Translations under genes and position numbers: made by a program
NCBI RefSeq assembly: GCF_963675635.1
Contig: NZ_OY776488.1
Coordinates: 723,740-787,739 of the forward strand
DNA from: an uncultured Pseudodesulfovibrio sp.
Lineage (GTDB): Bacteria > Desulfobacterota > Desulfovibrionia > Desulfovibrionales > Desulfovibrionaceae
Length of the DNA stretch: 64,000 nt
Reading direction: 5' to 3'
Notes under the pieces: generated by a model
Databases searched by the model: none
What the model saw: only the letters and a program-made list of their open reading frames with translations
What the model was told of the DNA's origin: nothing
Part shown: positions 32,302-42,255 of the stretch, in pieces
How positions within the stretch are numbered: position 1 is the stretch's first letter
Layout of the letters: each line of letters starts with the position of its first letter

Positions 32302-32415
32302 GTCGTTTCCCCTTGAAAATGGTTACAACTTGTTTTGTCATAATGGAGCCGCTTTTTGTTGTTGCCTCATCATGCCAAAATAATATGAAATGCTTCATCC
32401 ATTGTCTCTAAAAGT

Positions 32416-32449
32416 AAAGGGTTTATGTCATGAAGACATAAACCCTTTT
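32416..32449 (-). terminator. Displaced original terminator of tRNA-Leu
   Basis: A 14-bp perfect stem (32416-32429 with 32435-32448), core GGGTTTATGTC, lies immediately outside the left 57-bp att copy. It is positioned as a terminator just after the CCA end of the tRNA fragment on the minus strand. Before insertion it would have terminated tRNA-Leu. Confidence 0.75.
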
Positions 32450-32454
32450 CATAC

Positions 32455-32511
32455 TGGTACCTGGGGCGGGATTTGAACCCGCACGACCTTGCGATCAAGG
32501 GATTTTAAGTC
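32455..32511 (-). repeat. attL: 57-bp copy of the tRNA-Leu 3' end
   Basis: Identical over all 57 bases to 40435-40491, i.e. tRNA-Leu from nucleotide 31 (anticodon stem/loop) to the CCA end. Beyond 32511 the sequence no longer matches the tRNA, so this is a fragment, not a gene. It marks the far end of the integrated element. Confidence 0.97.
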
Positions 32512-32595
32512 GCAATCTAGCTGTATGATATCGTTGCATTTTTTATACAACTATTTGAATTCATTTAGCATGGCTTTGGGTAAAATTAGATCGGT

Positions 32596-32643
32596 TTGTT
32601 CCAATTAATACCCCGAGTGGAACAAAAATGGAACAAATGGAAC
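32596..32643. repeat. Left arm-type sites of the element (TGGAAC motifs)
   Basis: Three direct TGGAAC motifs (from 32618, 32630 and 32638) and one inverted copy TTGTTCCA (32596-32603). A 21-base block (32616-32636) is identical to one beside the integrase at 40357-40377. Likely binding sites of the integrase arm domain or of the excisionase. Confidence 0.65.
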
Positions 32644-32686
32644 TGCTCGAAAATATACTATCCCTGATGCGAAGGGTATTAGGAGA

Positions 32687-33238
32687 CTAGTTGCCCTCAG
32701 GTGGGTAATGAGGGGATATGTGCTCGAAGATAACTTCTGAACTCGGTCCATCTGTGCGCGAAACAGTGATATGGGTTTCCCATTCACCATTCACCTTTTT
32801 CATTTTTAAAACTTGTGTATGCCCGCCATTTCTTGCTTGCATGAAAAAGTTAAATTGGGCTTCATTCGAATTCGTATAAATGAAGGGGTAATTTAATCCT
32901 GCTGCATAGTTTGGATACGCTATTGGGACTCGGTTTAACGGAGTCGGCAAGGTCGGGGCGGTAGGATTGAAAGTCTGAAGATCAACCACCTGCATTTCAA
33001 GATCGTAAACCGGATATTCTCCTTTGTGGATGAGTATGAAAGCATTTACTCCCTTTACCAGATCGACATAGCAAAAGCTGTCTCCGCCAGTGATATTGTT
33101 AATTGTTTTTCCCTGAAGCTCAATGACCTTTGAGTCATGCTTGCTTTGATTGATTTGCGACCAAACACCACCAATTGCAGTAAATACAACACCTACGAAT
33201 ATAAGGGTCGTCGGCCCCCAGTTAGAGATGAAGCTCAT
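32687..33238 (-). CDS. Membrane-anchored protein of the element, unknown function
   Basis: 183 residues. One N-terminal membrane segment (about 9-27, TTLIFVGVVFTAIGGVW) is followed by a soluble beta-rich region without recognisable motifs (VKGVNAFILIHKGEYPVYDL, MQARNGGHTQVLKMKKVNG). No family recognised. It is the only gene of the element's left end and points outward, away from the mobilization genes. Position and lack of homology suggest cargo. Confidence 0.75.
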   Translation of the reverse strand: MSFISNWGPTTLIFVGVVFTAIGGVWSQINQSKHDSKVIELQGKTINNITGGDSFCYVDLVKGVNAFILIHKGEYPVYDLEMQVVDLQTFNPTAPTLPTPLNRVPIAYPNYAAGLNYPFIYTNSNEAQFNFFMQARNGGHTQVLKMKKVNGEWETHITVSRTDGPSSEVIFEHISPHYPPEGN

Positions 33239-33605
33239 TGTCTCTTCCTTGTTTTTTTTAAAAGTCCATGGGTGACTTGGAGCATAAATGGGCTTGTTGA
33301 AAAAAGAAAGTTTACAAAAAAGTTCGTCTTCTGTCTGTATTATGCTGTAATAACTTGTAAAGTTTTTTGCAGTGGTGTGTTTAGTTTAGAAATTTCAATT
33401 TTATACACATAACGTTTGAAAATTGAAAAAACCAAGAGGCTTTTTCTGCAGTTTTTTGCACTAAATTCTGCAGTATTTTTCACATCTTCAAAATTTATAT
33501 GTATAACGTTTGAACGAGGTAACTCCCTGAACTGATTTGATATATTGTAAAAACAGCGTATTATTTGTCTCAACTTGCACCCACTAACAAACATAGGTTT
33601 GAAAG
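33239..33605. other. AT-rich intergenic region with repeated motifs, possible origin or control region
   Basis: 367 bases between divergent genes of the element. ATAACGTTTGAA occurs at 33409-33420 and 33503-33514, both preceded by TATA-rich sequence. CTGCAG occurs twice (near 33447 and 33468) beside TTTTTTGCA/TATTTTTCAC. Spaced repeats beside an HTH gene and a replication-like gene could be operators or iterons of an origin; neither can be proven here. Confidence 0.4.
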
Positions 33606-33836
33606 ATGAAAGTTGAAGACAGACTGATAGGAGTTGAGGAGTTAGCCGGTATCCTCAATCTGTCGATCCACACGGTGAGGACATACTGCACGAAGGCACC
33701 AAAATTACTTCCTCCCTCAGTGAAGATTGGGCGTTCAGTTCGTTTTAGGCTCAGCGACATCAATTCATGGATGGCCAATCTGGATGCAGGACAAATGCCT
33801 GTTAAGCGTGGCCCTGGTCGTCCGAGGAAGCGCTAG
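33606..33836 (+). CDS. Excisionase/AlpA-like helix-turn-helix protein
   Basis: 76 residues of the HTH_17 (MerR-like excisionase) type: IGVEELAGILNLSIHTVRTY as helix-turn-helix, then SVKIGRSVRFRLSDINSWM as the wing, and a basic tail KRGPGRPRKR with an AT-hook-like GRPRK. Such proteins direct excision by integrases or activate element genes. Its stop lies 2 bases before the next gene, so it heads the plus-strand operon 33606-37256. Confidence 0.87.
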   Translation: MKVEDRLIGVEELAGILNLSIHTVRTYCTKAPKLLPPSVKIGRSVRFRLSDINSWMANLDAGQMPVKRGPGRPRKR

Positions 33837-33838
33837 CG

Positions 33839-34771
33839 ATGAACGAATGTCCATCCTTTCAGTTTTATCCGCGAGATTGGCTCAATGATCTCGATTTGCA
33901 GGGCTGTTCTCTACAGGCCCAGGCGATCATGATGACTTTTATTTGTGCGAGCCACGACTTTGAAGAAAACGGAATTTTGGTCATTGGAAAAGAGAAAAAA
34001 GATCCATTTTTAGATCAAAAATTTGCCAAAAAGTGTTCAAAAATTTTCAGAATTACGCCGAAAAAATTTCAAAAATTATTGCGCGAATTGGTCGATTCTG
34101 GAGTCTTAAAACAGGATGACGAAGGGTGTGTGTATTGTGCAAGAGTGGTCAGAGATCAAGAGCTTAGAGAGAAGCGGCGTGCCGCTGGGAAACTTGGAGG
34201 CAACCCGAATTTGGTTAAGCAAAAGGTTAACCAATGCTCCAAGCAAAATCCAACCCCTTCTACTACTACCTCTTCTTCCTCTTCATCTTCTCCTTCAAAA
34301 ATACCACCTACCACTACTTCTCCTCCCTCCACATCAGAGCCAAGTGGTTGTGGTCGTGTTTTGTCTGAGGATGAAGAAGACTTCATCCGGCTCTATGCCA
34401 AATTCAACACAAAAATGAGCAAGACAGGTCTGATCGAAACCTTAAAGAAGCGGGCCTTCTCGGGAACTCTTGATTTGTCGGCTCTGGAAGCTCTCCGAGC
34501 CAAAGAGCGGGAAGATCTTCGCATAGAGCGTGAGCGAGAAGCATCGATTCTACGGGTTAAGCAGGCTGAGGCAAGCCAGAAGCGAAAGGAAGCAGAGCAA
34601 CAAGCCGCAGAAGCGGAACGCCAGAAAGAAGGCCGTCGAGTTGCAGAAAAGTTTCGTGCTCAACGCCTAGCTGCCCTAGCTGCGCAAGGCAAAAACGGCG
34701 AGGAGGGACCTGTAACTTCGCTATCCGATTTTCAATCGGATGCTCGTCAGGTCCCTCCTGCGGAGAGCTAA
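33839..34771 (+). CDS. Phage-replisome-like protein with N-terminal winged-helix domain
   Basis: 310 residues. The N-terminal ~130 residues (FQFYPRDWLNDLDLQGCSLQ, FRITPKKFQKLLRELVDSGV) resemble the helix-turn-helix domain of phage or plasmid replication-organiser proteins. A Ser/Thr/Pro-rich linker (about 135-175) follows, then a highly charged helical tail rich in Arg, Glu, Ala and Gln, likely coiled coil. Replication initiation or regulation is inferred from domain type and from the position between excisionase and mobilization genes. The family match is moderate. Confidence 0.6.
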   Translation: MNECPSFQFYPRDWLNDLDLQGCSLQAQAIMMTFICASHDFEENGILVIGKEKKDPFLDQKFAKKCSKIFRITPKKFQKLLRELVDSGVLKQDDEGCVYCARVVRDQELREKRRAAGKLGGNPNLVKQKVNQCSKQNPTPSTTTSSSSSSSPSKIPPTTTSPPSTSEPSGCGRVLSEDEEDFIRLYAKFNTKMSKTGLIETLKKRAFSGTLDLSALEALRAKEREDLRIEREREASILRVKQAEASQKRKEAEQQAAEAERQKEGRRVAEKFRAQRLAALAAQGKNGEEGPVTSLSDFQSDARQVPPAES

Positions 34772-34774
34772 GAA

Positions 34775-35122
34775 ATGGCACGACGTGGACCTAACCCAAA
34801 GTCTGATTCTGAGCTGCGGAAGCATCAGATCAATTGCCGATTAACTGACCAGGAGCTGCAAGCCCTGGACGCTCGCCGCGGTGGTTTGTCTCGTGGCGCA
34901 TGGCTGCGCACGGCCGCTATGCAGCGTCCGCCACGAATTGTCCCTGCGATAAATCGTGAAGCTTGGTCACACTTGGCCAAGGTGGCTGGTGGGCTGACCT
35001 ACCTTGTCGAGGTGGCGAAGTCTGGCGGTACACCGTCAATGGACGGAAGCATGGTTGCCGATTTACGCCAGGCGGTTTCTGATGTTCGGCGTCTGCTGAT
35101 TGGGGTGGCAGATGAGGGCTAA
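34775..35122 (+). CDS. mobC: MobC-like relaxosome accessory protein
   Basis: 115 residues. The N-terminal ribbon-helix-helix (INCRLTDQELQALDARRGGL, SRGAWLRTAAM) and helical C-terminus (LTYLVEVAKSGG, VADLRQAVSDVRRLLIGVAD) are typical of MobC-type proteins that bind oriT and help the relaxase nick. Its stop overlaps the relaxase start at 35112, so the two are translationally coupled. The Arg/Lys-rich start MARRGPNPKSDSELRK suits DNA binding. Confidence 0.85.
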   Translation: MARRGPNPKSDSELRKHQINCRLTDQELQALDARRGGLSRGAWLRTAAMQRPPRIVPAINREAWSHLAKVAGGLTYLVEVAKSGGTPSMDGSMVADLRQAVSDVRRLLIGVADEG

Positions 35123-37256
35123 TGTCGTTCGTGGAGATGGATTTCGCGGGGCGTTGAATTATGCGCTAGCCTCACAGAAGCACGCCACTATTGTTGGTGG
35201 CAACCTTGAGGGACGTTCACCCCGGGAGTTGGCTAGCGAGTTTGCCGTCTCTCGCTCCCTGCGTCCTGATTGCATACGCCCTGTTTGGCATTGCTCCTTG
35301 TCTGCTCCCCAGACAGAGAGGCCTACTCCTGAGCAGTGGGAACAAGCTGCAGAGTTGCTCATGCGATCTGCTGGGTTGAGCCCTGAAAAACATCAATACG
35401 TGGTTGTTCGTCATGGCGATGCAGCTCATGACCATGTGCACGTCTATGCAAGCCGAATCGGCCTAGATGGATCGATATGGCATGGGCAGCATGAAGCCAA
35501 TCTTGTCCAGGACGCGACAGACAAAATCGAGCGAGAATTGGGGCTTACAGTTACCAGGGACCGACAGAACCCACGTTTCCAACCAAAATCGACAGTAAAA
35601 TGCTCCAAGCGGGAAACGGAGATGTGGGCACGAAAAGGTGTAGATGTCCCGCCCAAATATTTCATTGCCGCGAGCCTTGAGGGTGCTTTGGAGGCAGGAG
35701 CTAAATCCTGGGATGACCTGGTAGCAGCTTTAGAGCTTGATGGTATCGGTCTGCAAAAGAATAAGCGTGGTACCGGCTACAGGCTCAATTATGTCGAGCC
35801 TGTGACAGGCGAAGAGTGCTCTTACAAAGCTTCCGACATAGGCAAATCATATTCCTTCAAGCGTGTTGCGTCTGAATTAGAGGAGAACATGAATGGGCAA
35901 GATCGAAGAAATCAAAGAGAAAGCCAAGGAGAAGGCGGGGAGAGATCGTCTCAGCGAAATATTACAGAGCCTAGCCAGGACGAATCGTCGACTGGGGGAG
36001 ACTCTGACTATTGTCAGGACTCTTCCAAGTCAGTCGCAGTCTCAAGTTCCTCAACTGAAACAGGCGATCTTGTGCAGCCTAATAACAGGGGGGATCTTGA
36101 TGATGGGAACTTGGGCTTGGTTCGAGTTTCGAAACGATCCTTTGGAGGCAAAAGCAGCGAATTGGGACAGGATCGTCCAAAAATATCAAGTAATGACGCC
36201 GGAGACTCAAGCTTGGGTGCGGCAAAATTTGTTTCAGTAAAGGAGGATGTAGTCATGGATAGAGAGACCTTAAAGAAACAGGTCCAAACGACAATCAGCG
36301 GGATTTTGGACAAGGAAGATGAGCGAATAGAATTGATGGAATTCGCCCGGTTATTGAAAGAAAAAGGCATCGAATCAAAGCTTCATTACAACGAAAAAAT
36401 AAATAAGATCATGGGGTTCGGTCTTGACCTTGAGGGTGAGCACTTCCAGGGGCATGAGGTTGCAATTCCCTGGCAGTCGATTCGCAATAGAATAATCTTG
36501 CCCGAGGCCATGCAGAAGCTGGACAAGCCCACATTTACACTCAGTGCCGCTACAGAATCTGACGGAGATGGTTATACTTTGCCCATACCTGTATGCAGTC
36601 GGGAGGAAGCCCTGGAAGCCGCGAGAAGGCGTGCGCCAGGCCTGTTTGAAGGCTTTGAAATGTCGGAGGATGAAGATGGATGGGGATTGTTTTCAGTCAA
36701 TGGCGAAGTGCAGTTCTGCGAACCACCTGACGGAAAGAGAATAATTGTAAATCAAGAGAGTTATGAGGCCATTGCTGCAGCCATCGTCTACGGTAATGCG
36801 AGATGGGGGGAAGGTAATGTTTTGGTGACAAGTAAGGATCCGAAATTCATTGAAAAATGTCTCCGATCAGCCGATGAGTATGGCATCCAAATTGCCAATA
36901 GAGAGGAGCTGGAACGGATTATCAATGGAGACATTCAATCCAAGCCACAGCCTAAAGATAAGCCAGCAGTGCCATTTTCCACATATGCAGAAACCCTCGA
37001 AAAATTGGTGGAATATGAGGGCTATGCGTCTCTTGGGGAAAATGAACAAATCAAGGCCGGGCTTCGCGAAAAGCTGAATGAAATGGCGCAGGAGGGAGTT
37101 CTGGTGGGCCCCGAAGACATGAAAAAGCTGGCTGATAAAATTTCTGACCAGATTGGATACCCAGAGCAAGCTGAGCTTGCTGCGAAGTATCTTCAGAAAA
37201 TTGGCTATGAGGCAAATTTTGAAGATCAGGATAGCCAGCGCCTAGGGATGTGGTGA
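35112..37256 (+). CDS. mobA: Relaxase / mobilization nuclease with C-terminal polyvalent domains
   Basis: 714 residues from ATG 35112 (MRANVVRGDGF); ATG 35100 is possible. The N-terminal ~200 residues form the relaxase: Tyr in GFRGALNYALAS, then VVRHGDAAHDHVHVYASRIG with the metal-binding histidines. Two similar modules follow: SWDDLVAALELDGI...SYSFKRV and FARLLKEKGIES...AIPWQSIRN. Between them is a low-complexity Ser/Gly/Gln/Asp region (about 270-375) that overlaps a second gene in another frame. The C-terminus (YEAIAAAIVYGNARWGEG, KCLRSADEYGIQIA) resembles the LPD7 domain of plasmid proteins. It nicks oriT and leads the DNA strand into a conjugation pore supplied by a helper. Confidence 0.9.
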   Translation: MRANVVRGDGFRGALNYALASQKHATIVGGNLEGRSPRELASEFAVSRSLRPDCIRPVWHCSLSAPQTERPTPEQWEQAAELLMRSAGLSPEKHQYVVVRHGDAAHDHVHVYASRIGLDGSIWHGQHEANLVQDATDKIERELGLTVTRDRQNPRFQPKSTVKCSKRETEMWARKGVDVPPKYFIAASLEGALEAGAKSWDDLVAALELDGIGLQKNKRGTGYRLNYVEPVTGEECSYKASDIGKSYSFKRVASELEENMNGQDRRNQRESQGEGGERSSQRNITEPSQDESSTGGDSDYCQDSSKSVAVSSSSTETGDLVQPNNRGDLDDGNLGLVRVSKRSFGGKSSELGQDRPKISSNDAGDSSLGAAKFVSVKEDVVMDRETLKKQVQTTISGILDKEDERIELMEFARLLKEKGIESKLHYNEKINKIMGFGLDLEGEHFQGHEVAIPWQSIRNRIILPEAMQKLDKPTFTLSAATESDGDGYTLPIPVCSREEALEAARRRAPGLFEGFEMSEDEDGWGLFSVNGEVQFCEPPDGKRIIVNQESYEAIAAAIVYGNARWGEGNVLVTSKDPKFIEKCLRSADEYGIQIANREELERIINGDIQSKPQPKDKPAVPFSTYAETLEKLVEYEGYASLGENEQIKAGLREKLNEMAQEGVLVGPEDMKKLADKISDQIGYPEQAELAAKYLQKIGYEANFEDQDSQRLGMW
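35893..36240 (+). CDS. Nested MobB-like membrane protein in the +1 frame of the relaxase gene
   Basis: 115 residues, fully inside the relaxase gene but in another frame. ATG 35893 is preceded by GAGGAG. The protein has a charged helical N-terminus (MGKIEEIKEKAKEKAGRDRL), a transmembrane segment (about 58-78, AILCSLITGGILMMGTWAWF) and a polar tail. The relaxase frame is low-complexity exactly here, as expected if this frame carries the constraint. In RSF1010, mobB is nested in mobA the same way and encodes a membrane-associated helper of transfer. Homology by sequence was not tested. Confidence 0.75.
   Translation: MGKIEEIKEKAKEKAGRDRLSEILQSLARTNRRLGETLTIVRTLPSQSQSQVPQLKQAILCSLITGGILMMGTWAWFEFRNDPLEAKAANWDRIVQKYQVMTPETQAWVRQNLFQ
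36239..36257 (+). promoter_or_regulatory. Strong internal ribosome site and ATG in the relaxase frame
   Basis: AAAGGAGG (36239-36246) lies over the stop codon of the nested gene and 8 bases before ATG 36255, which is in the relaxase frame. Reinitiation there would give a separate 333-residue C-terminal protein (36255-37256, MDRETLKKQV...). In RSF1010 the RepB primase is likewise produced from an internal start in the mobA frame. Confidence 0.55.
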
Positions 37257-37260
37257 TGTC

Positions 37261-37458
37261 ATGCAGGCACAAGAGCAACAAATCTTGGAATTTGTGACAA
37301 TGGCCGATCATATTGGACCTTTTTGCAGGCTCTCGGAGCTTCGGGGGCTGCTTCAAAGTGTCCCTGCAGAAATTCGTGATACTCCGCTGTACCATTACCT
37401 GCACGGCTTATACGATGCGCGGTGCTTCTTCGATAAATCCCAAATGAATGATTTATGA
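37261..37458 (+). CDS. Small protein of the element, unknown
   Basis: 65 residues (MQAQEQQILEFVTMADHIGP...), probably all helical, with no recognised family. It starts 4 bases after the relaxase stop and its last 4 bases overlap the start of the HEXXH gene (ATGA), indicating translational coupling on both sides. Confidence 0.65.
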   Translation: MQAQEQQILEFVTMADHIGPFCRLSELRGLLQSVPAEIRDTPLYHYLHGLYDARCFFDKSQMNDL

Positions 37459-38222
37459 TTGAAAGATTCAGAAGATATATGAGAAGCCGATCCCTGCGCC
37501 GTGGCGTAAACATTTATGCTGCTATGAAAGCGTGGGGATCGCCTTTTCCCATCGAAGTGGTAAATATAAATAAGCCGTACCTTAATGCCATTGGGTTGTG
37601 CCCAGAGTATAATTACGACAGAAAAATATATTTCAATCTTTCCAAAGAGATATTTCCCAGATTCAGGAAGGAAAAAGCAATAGCTGAATTTCCCAGTTTT
37701 AATGAGTCGTACTCTTTTTCATATAAAGAATTATGGAAATCGCTAAACAAACGGAGAGTGTCATTAATCGAATATCCGTACTATGTATATTCACATGAAT
37801 GTGCTCACAAGTTTCTGTCGATACATCATCTCAACTTTGCGTGTCATTGTTTGGCGTTTTCTATTGTGAATTCAGTACTTCTAATTCGCTTGGGATTGGA
37901 TATGGATGAGGTCTTTGCTTTCTATAATTTTCATGAAGAACGACAGGCTTGTTATTCCTTAAGAAAATATGGTGCAGAAGCAACGTTGCGAGCATTGAAG
38001 TTGCTTGTGGTTGAAGCTGCAAATGAAATTAACAAGAATTATGTTGATGTCGCTGATTGCTGCAGTGAAGCCGTTGATTACGACTATAAGTCGTGCGCGC
38101 AGAATCTCATTATCGAATGGGCAGCGTACTACAAAAAACAAATCGTTAGAGAGCGATTGGAGAGATGGGTACTCATAGTCTTGTGTCTCCTCCTATTTTT
38201 CTTTTGGCTCCAACAATTGTAA
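37455..38222 (+). CDS. Tail-anchored HEXXH putative metallopeptidase, unknown family
   Basis: 255 residues. YSHECAHKFLSIHH carries HECAH (His114, Glu115, His118), the zinc-binding HEXXH pattern, and a later glutamate in YNFHEERQACY could be the third ligand. Residues ~235-254 (WVLIVLCLLLFFFWLQQL) form a C-terminal membrane anchor, so the catalytic part would face the cytoplasm. No family recognised. Overlap of 4 bases with the small gene upstream. Context: last gene of the coupled run that starts at the excisionase; candidate cargo for host interaction or defence, by inference only. Confidence 0.75.
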   Translation: MIERFRRYMRSRSLRRGVNIYAAMKAWGSPFPIEVVNINKPYLNAIGLCPEYNYDRKIYFNLSKEIFPRFRKEKAIAEFPSFNESYSFSYKELWKSLNKRRVSLIEYPYYVYSHECAHKFLSIHHLNFACHCLAFSIVNSVLLIRLGLDMDEVFAFYNFHEERQACYSLRKYGAEATLRALKLLVVEAANEINKNYVDVADCCSEAVDYDYKSCAQNLIIEWAAYYKKQIVRERLERWVLIVLCLLLFFFWLQQL

Positions 38223-38425
38223 AAAAAACTGTCTGTTGAGAGCGCTGTGGTGAATTATGCTTGTAATACAATTGGTAAAACGCTCCGTATTAACTTTTGT
38301 TATCCGAACTGTGGTCGCCTCAAGCCCTCCTTCGTCGGGATCGTCGAAAGAGACCACCTTGGGGCTGCTGCCCCCTTGCCCCCCGCTTATTTTTGAGGTT
38401 AAACATTTTTATGGAGGATAGAGAT
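38223..38425. other. GC-rich island with hairpin between cargo genes
   Basis: About 200 bases without a gene. The right half contains GGGGC/GCCCC (38361-38374) and a run of C-rich sequence, unlike the AT-rich genes on both sides, and a GGTCGCCTC...GAGACCACC imperfect inverted pair (about 38313-38358). It may be an oriT or an insulating terminator; no nic-site consensus was recognised. Confidence 0.35.
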
Positions 38426-38728
38426 ATGGATAAGCGGGGCTTTAATTATGAAAAGTTGTTGGAAGATTCGGCGTGCTCTTTTTGTGGTTCGTTTGCTGCA
38501 AAGGGAACCTCTGTTTGCAATTCGTGTGGAGCTGTGCACGGAACCGTTCTTCCAGGGATAGGGGCCTTTATGATCTTTTTGGCCCTTTTCTTTTCTGGAA
38601 TTGCTGGCGTGTACTTCGGGGTTGATAACAAGTCGGGAATTGTTGGGTGGGGCGTTTTCATTGCAGTAGGCCTTCCCTCCGCAATATTCATGGGAAAGAG
38701 TTTTATCCGTAAGGGGTGGTTTAGATAA
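38426..38728 (+). CDS. Zinc-ribbon membrane protein of the element
   Basis: 100 residues from ATG 38426, with GGAGG 8 bases upstream. The N-terminus holds two CxxC pairs (CSFCG and CNSCG) 10 residues apart, a zinc ribbon. Two membrane helices follow (about 43-65 and 72-92). No further family recognised. Lies between the HEXXH protein and a coiled-coil membrane protein. Confidence 0.75.
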   Translation: MDKRGFNYEKLLEDSACSFCGSFAAKGTSVCNSCGAVHGTVLPGIGAFMIFLALFFSGIAGVYFGVDNKSGIVGWGVFIAVGLPSAIFMGKSFIRKGWFR

Positions 38729-38751
38729 TAATCCAATTTAGTGAGGATTGT

Positions 38752-39324
38752 ATGGAAGTTGGTTTTCAGTGGACAATTTTTGGTTCAATTGTTGGCGCTA
38801 TTGTGGCTTCTTTGGTTGTGAATTTTGCAGTTGGCAAGGTTCAACTTGAGCGCACAACAAAGCAAATTAGATTGCGGGAATGGGAAAAGAAAGTTGATCT
38901 TGAAAGAGAAGAACGTTTATTCTTCGTGGATAAGCTCGAGAGGGCATACGTCATTTGTTCGTCGTTATCCTACTTCAACTCTATGACTAAGTGGTTCATT
39001 GAGTCAGAAAGGATGTGCTCTCCCGAGGAATGGGATCAGCTTTACCAGATAGAGAGAGCAAAGTTTGACGAATTGGAAATGCTTATAGGGCTATATTTTC
39101 AAGATTTAGTTGATGTCTGCAATAAATTGCATGGGGCTACAAATTGTTTTTGGGGAAACCAGCGAAGCTACATGCGGTATGAACAGGATGGTAAAAAAGA
39201 TCTTCAAGAGTTTTATGGAGAGAAGATCGTTAAAGACTCACAAACTGTTGGGCAGATAGTGAGTTCACTGGAGTATGGTTTGTCGCGACATGCTAAAGGT
39301 CTTGGATTTAACGTAGCAGATTAA
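38752..39324 (+). CDS. N-terminally anchored coiled-coil protein of the element
   Basis: 190 residues: one membrane segment (about 7-27, TIFGSIVGAIVASLVVNFAV), then a charged coiled-coil (about 35-65, RLREWEKKVDLEREERLFF) and a helical soluble domain with several aromatic residues. No known family recognised. The gene follows the zinc-ribbon gene by 23 bases and is convergent with the integrase. Confidence 0.75.
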   Translation: MEVGFQWTIFGSIVGAIVASLVVNFAVGKVQLERTTKQIRLREWEKKVDLEREERLFFVDKLERAYVICSSLSYFNSMTKWFIESERMCSPEEWDQLYQIERAKFDELEMLIGLYFQDLVDVCNKLHGATNCFWGNQRSYMRYEQDGKKDLQEFYGEKIVKDSQTVGQIVSSLEYGLSRHAKGLGFNVAD

Positions 39325-39345
39325 TGAGATCAATTTGAATTGATC

Positions 39346-40335
39346 CTAATTAACATTTTCAGCCAGACTTTTAACCAAGTCAACAGCCCGCAAGTGGGTA
39401 TACCTCGCCAGCATTTGCAGAGTCTTGTGGCCAGTAATCATCTGGATCTGCATGATGTCCAGGTTGGTTTTTTCAAAGAGCCTGGATACAGCTTCGTGTC
39501 TGAGATCGTGAAACCGCAAATCCTTGAGCTTTGCGCCAGCTCGGGTCTTCTTCATGGCCTGAGTGATTTCATCCGGCGTCAATCTGAAGGCCGATCCTTT
39601 TATGTCCCTTGGGAGCTCCTTCAGCACATTTAACGCGGCCGGAGAGAGCGGGACTGTGCGGGCCGCCCCATTCTTCGTCTTGGGCAGAAATACAGTGCTT
39701 TCTTTGAGCTTGACGTTTTCCCAGCGAAGGGCGGCTATCTCGCCGCGTCTCATGGCCGTTTCAAGGGCAAACTTAATGACAGGACCGAAGCCTTCCGGCG
39801 CATGCTTAAGAAGCTTCTCTTCCTCACCTTCATGGAGTCGACGCTCTCGGCCTCTCGACACTTTGGGCTTTCTGGCCTTCTTGACGGGGTTGTCCAGGTA
39901 TTCCATGCCCCAGTCCTTGCGGGCAGTCTCAAAGAGGCGGGAGAAGGTTGCCAGGTCGAGTCTGATCGTGTTGCCGGCGACTCCTTCGGCCTCGCGTTCT
40001 TTAATGAAGGCTGCAATATCCATCCCCCGAATTTTGGCCAATGACATTTGGGCGATCTTGCGCTTTTGGAGAAACTTTGCCCTGTTTACCTCGCGCTGGT
40101 GGTCGGCAAGGGATGGGGCGTATTCCTCGATGTATCGATCAAGGGCTTCATGCAGGCTTGTGCGTTCGGCTTCTTTGGTACAAAGGAAAGCTCCCTTATC
40201 CATTTTGCTTTCGACATCTCGGACCCAAGCTTCAGCGTCTTCTCTTTTTTCGAAGGTGGCAGTTTGGAGAGGGTAGCCCTTTCGTCTGATCCGGGCGTTC
40301 CATTGCTTAGTGCCTCGTTTTCTTATGCTCGCCAT
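39346..40335 (-). CDS. int: Tyrosine-type site-specific integrase
   Basis: 329 residues from ATG complement(40333..40335), with AAGGAG 7 bases upstream. An N-terminal arm-binding domain (MASIRKRGTKQWNARIRRKG) and SAM-like core-binding domain precede the catalytic domain: Arg in ETAMRRGEIAALRW, HDLRHEAVSRL and ITGHKTLQMLARYTH with the nucleophilic Tyr. Reads away from the intact tRNA; it inserts the element into the tRNA-Leu anticodon-to-CCA segment. Arm-type TGGAAC repeats precede it at 40357-40397. Confidence 0.96.
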   Translation of the reverse strand: MASIRKRGTKQWNARIRRKGYPLQTATFEKREDAEAWVRDVESKMDKGAFLCTKEAERTSLHEALDRYIEEYAPSLADHQREVNRAKFLQKRKIAQMSLAKIRGMDIAAFIKEREAEGVAGNTIRLDLATFSRLFETARKDWGMEYLDNPVKKARKPKVSRGRERRLHEGEEEKLLKHAPEGFGPVIKFALETAMRRGEIAALRWENVKLKESTVFLPKTKNGAARTVPLSPAALNVLKELPRDIKGSAFRLTPDEITQAMKKTRAGAKLKDLRFHDLRHEAVSRLFEKTNLDIMQIQMITGHKTLQMLARYTHLRAVDLVKSLAENVN

Positions 40336-40356
40336 TTTGATGCTCCTTTGATTCTT

Positions 40357-40397
40357 AGTGGAACAAAAATGGAACAATAATACAAGTGGAACAAAAG
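40357..40397. repeat. Right arm-type sites of the element
   Basis: Three TGGAAC motifs (near 40360, 40370 and 40387) between the integrase start and the tRNA end; the block 40357-40377 is identical to 32616-32636 at the other end. The layout suits binding by integrase and excisionase at attR. Confidence 0.65.
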
Positions 40398-40399
40398 AA

Positions 40400-40427
40400 A
40401 AGGAGCTATGCTTTCGCATAACTCCTT
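40400..40427 (-). terminator. Element-borne replacement terminator for tRNA-Leu
   Basis: Stem 40400-40411 with 40416-40427 (one mismatch, loop of four), followed on the minus strand by TCTTTTGTT. It lies 8 bases beyond the tRNA CCA end, inside the element, and substitutes for the original terminator now at 32416-32449. Confidence 0.75.
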
Positions 40428-40434
40428 ATATTTT

Positions 40435-40491
40435 TGGTACCTGGGGCGGGATTTGAACCCGCACGACCTTGCGATCAAGGGATTTTAAGTC
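40435..40491 (-). repeat. attR: 57-bp tRNA 3' end at the integrase side
   Basis: Perfect match to 32455-32511. The shared segment begins in the anticodon stem and runs to the CCA, a common integrase target. Confidence 0.97.
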
Positions 40492-40521
40492 CCTGGTGTC
40501 TACCAGTTCCACCACCCAGGC
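40435..40521 (-). tRNA. tRNA-Leu(UAA)
   Basis: 87 nucleotides including an encoded CCA. Acceptor arms GCCTGGG and CCCAGGT, anticodon stem AGGGA/TCCCT with loop CTTAAAA (anticodon TAA, codon UUA), a long variable arm TTGATCGCAA typical of tRNA-Leu, and T-loop GGTTCAAATC. Its 3' 57 bases are the element's attachment sequence; integration has kept the gene intact. Confidence 0.97.
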
Positions 40522-40534
40522 TTGAAGGTTTGTT

Positions 40535-40563
40535 TCTTTATCCCGCAAAATAGCGAGCGTCAA
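40535..40563 (-). promoter_or_regulatory. Promoter of tRNA-Leu
   Basis: On the minus strand TTGACG (40558-40563), 17 bases, TAAAGA (40535-40540), 13 bases before the mature tRNA 5' end. It lies outside the element, so transcription of the tRNA is unaffected by the insertion. Confidence 0.6.
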
Positions 40564-40572
40564 CGGTTTTGG

Positions 40573-42255
40573 TTACTTGAACATCTTTAGATAGTTTTTG
40601 AACAGTCGGGGGCTGACTCTGGAGTATTGATCAAAATCGGAAATAAGTTCAAGGCCGGGGATAATGGCTCGGGTGACAGGAATGTCCAGATCCTTGCGGG
40701 TCAGGTCCACGTAGGTCGGATTGTATCCATTATCCATAAGCGTTTTTTCAAGAACCATGAGATCACCCTCGGCACTGCCTGTGGAGTAGTTTGGCAGGTC
40801 TTCGAGGCGGCGTGTCTCAATACCTTCCGGGGCCGGGCCGCTTGCAGGGCCAGGGTATGGATAGGCCGTTTCCGTCATGGCGGAGACCAGGGCGGATTGA
40901 CCGTTCAGTCCACAGCCGCCGCCTTTGTTGACATCGCCGTGTTTGCCGAGGACAACTGACTTGTAGCAGGGGACGCCGAGCTCAGTAGTCATGTCAATAA
41001 ACCAGACGTCGATGCCGTCGGTTTTGTATCCGTTCAATATTTTGGCGATATCCTGATTGTTAGTTTCAATGCGGAAACACCGTTTGGAGTCGTAGAGCAT
41101 GGTCGCATCGGAATCACGTTCGATGACTTCTGTCAGGGCGGCAACTTTTGCTTCGGCGATGGTGTTGCCGGATGCCAGACCTGTCGAGCCAAGAGCGCTG
41201 AACAGGCTTTGCTCATCCAGATTGCAAAAAAGAAATATGCATTGGACCGGGATCAGGATGGGCTTTGTTCCGCCGTTGCCGTCTGGCGTATTGCCTTCCA
41301 TCCAGTAGAGTTTTTGGCCTGCGTAGGGGACTTCGAGTCGGACGTGATTCGGATTGATTGCGTTGACGTCCAACTCATTATAGGCAGCATACGTGAGGGG
41401 GTATTTTTGTTTGTAACCGAGGATACCTTCTTTACCTGCGCTGGCGTATGACGAAAAACGTTCTGCCATTTCCATGCAGCATGAGGCGTCCGCCTGTTTG
41501 CGTGACAATCCCCGACCATAACTGGTTTGGATGCCCTCAAGTGAGTTGGATAGTGAGCCGTTGACCGAACGGGTTTTGACCATCCAGTGCCGCAGGCTGG
41601 CAATCGGCGACAATGATGCCTTGTGCTCCATGACAGGACCAAGAAAGGCATCAGCCTTGTCCAGCGCAGAGAACGCCCGGTCAATGGTTTCTTCCAGTGG
41701 GCATCGAGGTTTTGGTGGCGGGAGTTGGCTGTTCAATGCTTTGCGAACTTCCGCTGCGGTTGTCGGCGTGGGCTGGTCGAGTTCGGCGTCTGTGTACAGC
41801 GGCTCAGGAGCGTCTTCAAGAGAAGGCAATGGAGCCAGGGTATAGATGTTTTCCCTGAAAAGATTGATCCATTCCTGGTGCCGGGGTTGGTCCGCGACAA
41901 GTCTCGAGCGGATATGGATGGCCGGAGTGAAGTCAAGTAGAGATGCAGAGTTCAGCCCGTCGAACAAGGGGAGCAGTGAGGCTTGCCGGGAATGACAGAT
42001 GCACGCTTCATACATGACAGCCGTGAGAATCGGATCGGACTGGCCGTTATCTTTCATGACTTCTTTGATGAGTTTTTGAAGCTTGCGTGTGCGAAAGTCC
42101 TTGAACCCCTGAAGCACGAATTGGTGCATATAGTCGTCATATGGGTGTTTTCGCAGATAGTCCGTCATTTCGTTGAAGCTCAAGTTGGCATCCGGTATGG
42201 CGGCAAACATGCCGACACCGAAATCCGTATCCATCATTTGCAGCTTGTAACGCAT
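40573..42255 (-). CDS. YcaO-domain protein
   Basis: 560 residues from ATG complement(42253..42255), with GAGGA 4 bases upstream; this ATG shares one base with the stop of the SGNH gene. The N-terminal ~230 residues are helical and not recognised (YMHQFVLQGFKDFRTRKLQK). The C-terminal YcaO domain has LASGNTIAEAKVAALTEVIE and ERDSDATMLYDSKRCFRIET. YcaO proteins are ATP-dependent enzymes that form azolines or thioamides in peptides or proteins, or assist RimO-type modification. No precursor peptide or partner dehydrogenase is adjacent, so a housekeeping type is more likely than a natural-product cluster. Confidence 0.88.
   Translation of the reverse strand: MRYKLQMMDTDFGVGMFAAIPDANLSFNEMTDYLRKHPYDDYMHQFVLQGFKDFRTRKLQKLIKEVMKDNGQSDPILTAVMYEACICHSRQASLLPLFDGLNSASLLDFTPAIHIRSRLVADQPRHQEWINLFRENIYTLAPLPSLEDAPEPLYTDAELDQPTPTTAAEVRKALNSQLPPPKPRCPLEETIDRAFSALDKADAFLGPVMEHKASLSPIASLRHWMVKTRSVNGSLSNSLEGIQTSYGRGLSRKQADASCCMEMAERFSSYASAGKEGILGYKQKYPLTYAAYNELDVNAINPNHVRLEVPYAGQKLYWMEGNTPDGNGGTKPILIPVQCIFLFCNLDEQSLFSALGSTGLASGNTIAEAKVAALTEVIERDSDATMLYDSKRCFRIETNNQDIAKILNGYKTDGIDVWFIDMTTELGVPCYKSVVLGKHGDVNKGGGCGLNGQSALVSAMTETAYPYPGPASGPAPEGIETRRLEDLPNYSTGSAEGDLMVLEKTLMDNGYNPTYVDLTRKDLDIPVTRAIIPGLELISDFDQYSRVSPRLFKNYLKMFK

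Follow-up and report, generated by a model that had tools for sequence, protein, structure and literature searches.

Does one stretch of chromosomal DNA encode both the linker of a relaxase and, one frame over, a complete membrane protein – and is that protein a MobB? The question is posed by a relaxase gene in 64,000 nt of DNA from an uncultured Pseudodesulfovibrio sp. (the window, to whose positions all coordinates refer), where the first-pass annotation had read an open +1 frame as a mobB-like gene nested in the relaxase gene. That remains the best reading, supported by conservation of the frame in a second genome of the genus, G242, and by the pattern of substitution between the two. We consider it likely that 35893-36240 is a true, expressed, dual-coding mobB-like gene that has its own ribosome site and overlaps, in the +1 frame, the relaxase gene of a small integrative mobilizable element; its product would be a 115-aa inner-membrane protein that most likely anchors the relaxosome.

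The mobilizable island and the nested frame

The relaxase gene belongs to an element of ~8.0 kb, bounded by identical 57-bp repeats and integrated in the 3′ end of tRNA-Leu(taa), the features of which are as follows.

32455..32511, left att repeat, 57 bp, identical to the right copy
33606..33836, + strand, HTH_17 / excisionase-like protein
33839-34771, 310-aa protein without a significant Pfam match; its counterpart in the G242 island is 73% identical
34775..35122, + strand, mobC, accessory protein of the relaxosome resembling NikA (PF21983, E 1.6e-5, slightly under the cut-off), overlapping the mobA start
35112..37256, + strand, mobA, MOBP relaxase of 714 aa (PF03432, MobA/VirD2 nuclease domain, E 2.3e-26)
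35880..35885, + strand, Shine-Dalgarno GAGGAG of the mobB-like gene, with a 7-nt spacer to the ATG at 35893; kept in G242
35893..36240, + strand, mobB-like gene, 115 aa, complete, +1 frame relative to the relaxase gene
36241..36246, + strand, AGGAGG, a candidate Shine-Dalgarno for an internal start, immediately after the mobB stop and followed 8 nt on by an in-frame ATG at 36255
36255..37256, + strand, C-terminal 333 aa of the relaxase, in frame with mobA, a candidate for separate translation
39346..40419, − strand, tyrosine integrase (PF00589, E 4.4e-25)
40435..40491, right att repeat, inside tRNA-Leu(taa) (40435-40521, − strand)

Small cargo genes make up further content of the island. With an integrase, att repeats at a tRNA, a relaxase and no match to the VirB4 family PF03135 in the whole genome, the element is an integrative mobilizable one, and its transfer would therefore need a helper. 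The genome carries a dsrA above the cut-off, which makes a sulfate reducer plausible. The related island of G242 shares this backbone, also at a tRNA-Leu(taa), and has different cargo. A 70-bp block with inverted repeats (38319-38388) is 88.6% identical in the two islands amid cargo that is not conserved, and is a candidate oriT or other recognition site; nothing like it was found in the other loci compared (best 20 of 29 bases). The IncP-type nic pattern, tried as a guide to oriT, gave two minus-strand matches, neither of them persuasive, and an Rfam scan of 32400-40600 returned nothing but the tRNA.

The relaxase is classed as MOBP, as are its closest plasmid relatives; its match to TraI_MobP_relax (E 1.4e-20) lies under that model's cut-off. 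The nested gene overprints residues 261-377, a linker that is indeed of low complexity, as had been claimed: its entropy of 3.68 bits compares with 4.12 and 4.07 in the flanking parts, and 16% of its residues are hydrophobic, against 28% and 31% there.

Coordinates, frame, length, Shine-Dalgarno sequence and membrane stretch of the nested frame were all confirmed. The protein, which begins MGKIEEIKE, is predicted to comprise an N-terminal helix, one membrane helix (~residues 52-81) and a short helical C-tail; a single-sequence model (mean pLDDT 70) places helices at residues 3-43 and 52-81. Hydropathy averaged over 19 residues peaks at 1.61 (residue 59), a borderline value taken alone; the G242 protein reaches 2.15. 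The membrane stretch starts at 51% of the length and is thus mid-protein, unlike the near-C-terminal stretch of 21 others in our alignment (A1) of such proteins.

Overlapping frames in related loci

Among the Desulfovibrionaceae loci, the window and G242 were the only two to show full nesting. The relaxase was matched at E up to 1e-20 in 19 of 288 family genomes, among which G242 alone, besides the source genome, has the full-length type. Searched against the same 288 genomes the nested protein gave five matches: those in its own genome and in G242 are real, and the other three were rejected, being weak (E 0.002-0.008) and having stops inside the match. Against plasmids it gave none. Among 395 genomes of the phylum the relaxase found two matches besides its own, one with an overlapping ORF (L034) and one without (L035); it had no match among viral_contigs, and a single weak partial one among genome_contigs (L027, residues 361-443, E 8e-5).

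A looser form of the arrangement is common. In 16 of the 18 other Desulfovibrionaceae relaxase loci (L004-L021) there is a +1 ORF with an SD-like core and a membrane stretch, which makes the arrangement less exceptional than the first-pass annotation supposed. These 16 ORFs encode proteins of 152-174 aa that resemble the window's in position, Shine-Dalgarno sequence and start motif (M(S/G)K- or MK-type) and begin after ~246-270 relaxase codons, as do those of five of six judged plasmid loci. They differ in that all run beyond the relaxase stop, so that they are 3′-overlapping and not enclosed, in that their membrane helix is near-C-terminal, and in that their profile similarity to the window pair is not significant. 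One of the 18 relaxases (L014) is broken by two stop codons. In the +2 frame, our control, no ORF of at least 80 aa with a membrane stretch was found in the 17 loci recognised of the 26 given.

A tree of 28 rows, drawn from the N-terminal parts of the relaxases, places the window in a set of ten (99/97) together with G242, the plasmids pGNB2, pGXY040 and pTM18-1, L034, L036, L007, L008 and L035; L040 and the other Desulfovibrionaceae loci fall outside. The window relaxase thus lies apart from the common group of its family and is not derived from the common local type. The +1 ORF is absent from L007 and L008, the two exceptions within the family, and from L035 and L039. L007, L008 and L035, whose MOBP relaxases group within or close to the clade of the window relaxase, may have lost it or may have a different accessory protein.

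Closer parallels than RSF1010 are found on plasmids with MOBP relaxases. Seven loci were picked, non-randomly, from 279 records matching the relaxase; one (L038) ends at the record edge, leaving six to be judged, and the ORF is present in L028, L029, L036, L037 and L040 and absent from L039. A further plasmid, pTM18-1 (L031), reached by way of the pGNB2 nested protein, also has it. The gene is unannotated in pGNB2, a hypothetical protein in pGXY040 and pTM18-1, and an IncQ-type MobB (NCBI) in L040. For seven of eight plasmid records with such a gene pair (L028-L032, L036, L037, L040) the gene table, which in PLSDB is itself incomplete, lacks the relaxase or the mobB-like gene; that of L037 covers only the 3′ part.

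The genes of pGNB2 (L028), pGXY040 (L029) and pTM18-1 belong with relaxases of the window's own clade, lie in the +1 frame, start at the same place, encode a membrane helix and share an M-x-K-(I/L)-E start; in pGNB2 and pTM18-1 a C-tail motif also aligns with that of the window protein. They differ in the length of the protein (161-227 aa), in residing on replicating plasmids and in the C-termini of their relaxases. The Chitinibacter plasmid L040 has, at codon 247 of a MOBP relaxase gene, a +1 gene for an IncQ-type MobB that matches PF17511; its relaxase stands outside the window's clade and has a RepB primase as C-terminal part.

RSF1010/R1162 (IncQ1), with mobB in mobA/repB, shares the nested arrangement: its relaxase gene, too, carries a +1 gene for a small membrane protein that begins beyond the nuclease part, and an in-frame downstream protein, RepB, starts at the mobB stop (PMC2200642). 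But its relaxase is MOBQ and not MOBP, the window's element is chromosomal and integrating, the window's C-terminal part weakly matches LPD7 and not RepB, and the window protein has no PF17511 match. Accessory mobilization genes that overlap a MOBP relaxase gene are also described elsewhere, and we liken these to ours by description, not by sequence: mobA, mobB and mobC overlap in the MOBP5 plasmids pMARC2/pAES4 (PMC3832669), and RP4 traH lies in another frame of traI, a MOBP relaxase gene, TraH being described as an acidic relaxosome protein (PMC7314908). A search of the open-licence literature, which mostly leaves out the subscription work on R1162 and pC221, turned up none that deals with a mobB nested in an element of the Desulfovibrio type, which does not prove that there is none.

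Likeness of the protein to MobB

Two features of MobB are seen in the window: a helical N-terminal part followed by one membrane helix, though mid-protein, and a location in the +1 frame of the relaxase gene with a start of its own. Sequence likeness is slighter. Against PF17511 (Mobilization_B) the window protein gave no match at E up to 1, and it is no member by the curated cut-off. The L040 protein matches at 3.7e-13 and the L036 protein weakly (0.021); five other nested or overlapping proteins scanned gave none among the matches listed, and within alignment A1 the family is matched by the RSF1010-type member only. The top NCBIfam match of the window protein is CusB (E 5e-4, far under the cut-off), across the membrane segment. 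When the window/G242 pair was compared by profile with a set of seven nested or overlapping proteins of MOBP type, the probability was 85% over membrane helix and tail, a score attained by none of 100 column-shuffled decoys whether or not the membrane block was kept; three further comparisons with MobB-like sets gave 9.5, 1.8 and 6.8%. Because three of the four are unsupportive, our use of the term MobB-like draws mainly on place, frame, start and topology and less on sequence. In R1162 the transport signals of the relaxase reportedly need MobB, as a 2007 title of Parker and Meyer indicates.

The limited sequence similarity leaves some room for a different product: a real overlapping gene whose protein resembles TraH, the soluble relaxosome stabiliser of RP4, or is an unrelated membrane protein. 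The gene for TraH, too, occupies another frame of a MOBP relaxase gene (PMC7314908), yet the same paper describes an acidic relaxosome protein, whereas ours has a membrane helix; moreover, position and topology fit the plasmid MobB-like proteins, and the C-tail of the window protein aligns with those of pGNB2 and its relatives. We therefore judge a product of this other kind unlikely, and prefer a MobB-like one.

Selection on two frames

A more basic doubt is whether the frame is a gene at all. An open frame alone is weak evidence here, because synonymous codon shuffles of the relaxase often give a +1 ORF as long or longer: at least 115 aa in 1096 of 5000 shuffles for the window and at least 116 aa in 2402 of 5000 for G242. 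A frame in the same place was open in 705 of 5000 shuffles of the window, in 1143 of 5000 of G242 and in both together in 167 of 5000. A length so unremarkable (22% and 48% of shuffles) is what might be expected if the frame were a chance product of a low-complexity, stop-poor linker; it is the evolutionary pattern that carries the case.

The full-length comparison, and with it the codon test of the nested gene, is of one pair, the window and G242. The frame is open in G242, the one full-length relative found: its ORF, of 116 aa, has the same offset and the same Shine-Dalgarno sequence, and 73 of 115 aligned residues are identical (63%). Identity of the relaxase between the two is 64% before the overlap, 37% within it and 72% after it, and the same alignment read in the +1 frame gives 30%, 62% and 49%. 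In the overlap, then, mobB is more conserved than the relaxase at the protein level, +1 identity there standing 0.24 above relaxase identity; outside the overlap it is at best 0.18 below (367 sliding windows). We do not count as evidence a related comparison, in which the 73 identities observed for the nested protein were set against synonymous shuffles (mean 23.3, maximum 38): shuffling erases shared ancestry, and the sliding windows are the better control.

Substitutions by codon position, the check that had been proposed for this gene, show changes in the overlap avoiding the third position of relaxase codons. In a relaxase-guided alignment – a choice that works against the nested-gene hypothesis – changes at positions 1/2/3 number 58/41/22 in the overlap and 84/60/154 upstream (p 2.5e-9); in a nested-guided alignment they number 57/38/18, against 136/100/293 in both flanks (p 2e-13). 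Far from being disrupted by synonymous variation in the relaxase, the nested frame is spared by the substitutions that separate this pair. Close pairs of 3′-overlapping loci, and pGNB2/pTM18-1, have also lost the third-position bias, with p < 0.05 in seven of the eight pairs tested (the window pair included; pairs partly share members).

When, in turn, the synonymous codons of the nested gene were shuffled, the relaxase frame stayed open in none of 10,000 cases for the window and in 58 of 10,000 for G242. Since it closes in nearly all such shuffles it must also be constrained; and its identity within the overlap, 42 of 114, was reached in 3 of 3000 shuffles that held the nested protein fixed. 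Both frames are under selection.

Against an origin by chance, therefore, stand the higher conservation of the nested protein where the relaxase is least conserved, the kept ribosome site and start, an inverted codon-position pattern that refutes it unless the G242 pair is unrepresentative, and an ORF in the same place in the 16 other family loci with nothing in the +2 control; we hold it to be very improbable. No more credible is a ribosomal frameshift that would yield a relaxase-MobB fusion in place of free MobB, for although the frame is +1 and starts just past a domain boundary, an SD-like core and an ATG precede it in all 23 genes listed, among them RSF1010 mobB, and RSF1010 MobB is described as a separate gene (PMC2200642).

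The relaxase C-terminal part and the origin of nesting

Directly behind the mobB stop, G242 has the same AGGAGG and ATG as the window, with 14 nt from stop to ATG in both. RepB begins at the mobB stop in the RSF1010-type and Chitinibacter records, and in RSF1010 the start region of repB had to be changed when mobB was taken out (PMC2200642). Together the conserved signals and these precedents make a separate C-terminal product likely here: the relaxase C-terminal domain probably also has a start of its own right after the mobB stop, by analogy with RSF1010 repB. The LPD7 match of this domain is weak (23 bits; cut-off 27), its predicted structure (mean pLDDT 50) was set aside for fold searches, and it found no match among plasmids and matches in two of 348 genomes of the class, the source genome and G242.

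Full nesting requires four changes on the 28-row tree, on which gains and losses are not separable; by this count it is not a single event. One history that would join these observations, and to which we give about even weight, is the following. A +1 gene for a mobB-like membrane protein, whose Shine-Dalgarno sequence falls within the last codons of the relaxase middle domain (often those of an LQKRG motif), would be standard but mostly unannotated in a large MOBP group of Desulfovibrionaceae and of plasmids from several phyla. Nesting would have arisen when the relaxase frame was extended over an older mobB into a downstream in-frame gene, making the linker the overprinted newcomer and mobB the constrained original, with the downstream part retaining its own start.

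Mechanism and significance

How might such a protein act? MobA would nick oriT together with MobC. MobB, inserted in the inner membrane with its cytoplasmic-type N-terminal helix toward the relaxase, would most likely – by analogy with plasmid MobB – bind the relaxase, anchor the relaxosome there and pass it on to a helper type IV secretion system, at whose coupling protein it would promote docking. The overlapped part of the relaxase would serve as a tolerant linker between the nuclease and middle domains and the C-terminal domain.

The arrangement resembles one for which small mobilizable plasmids offer known precedents, and the gene described here stands amid a wider family of such genes, most of them unannotated; what the window gene adds is unusually clear evidence of dual coding. 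It provides a case in which dual coding in a bacterial chromosome, with constraint in both frames, can be cleanly measured, and it suggests that a small membrane protein of the relaxosome, overlooked in annotation, is common in the mobilizable islands of sulfate reducers.
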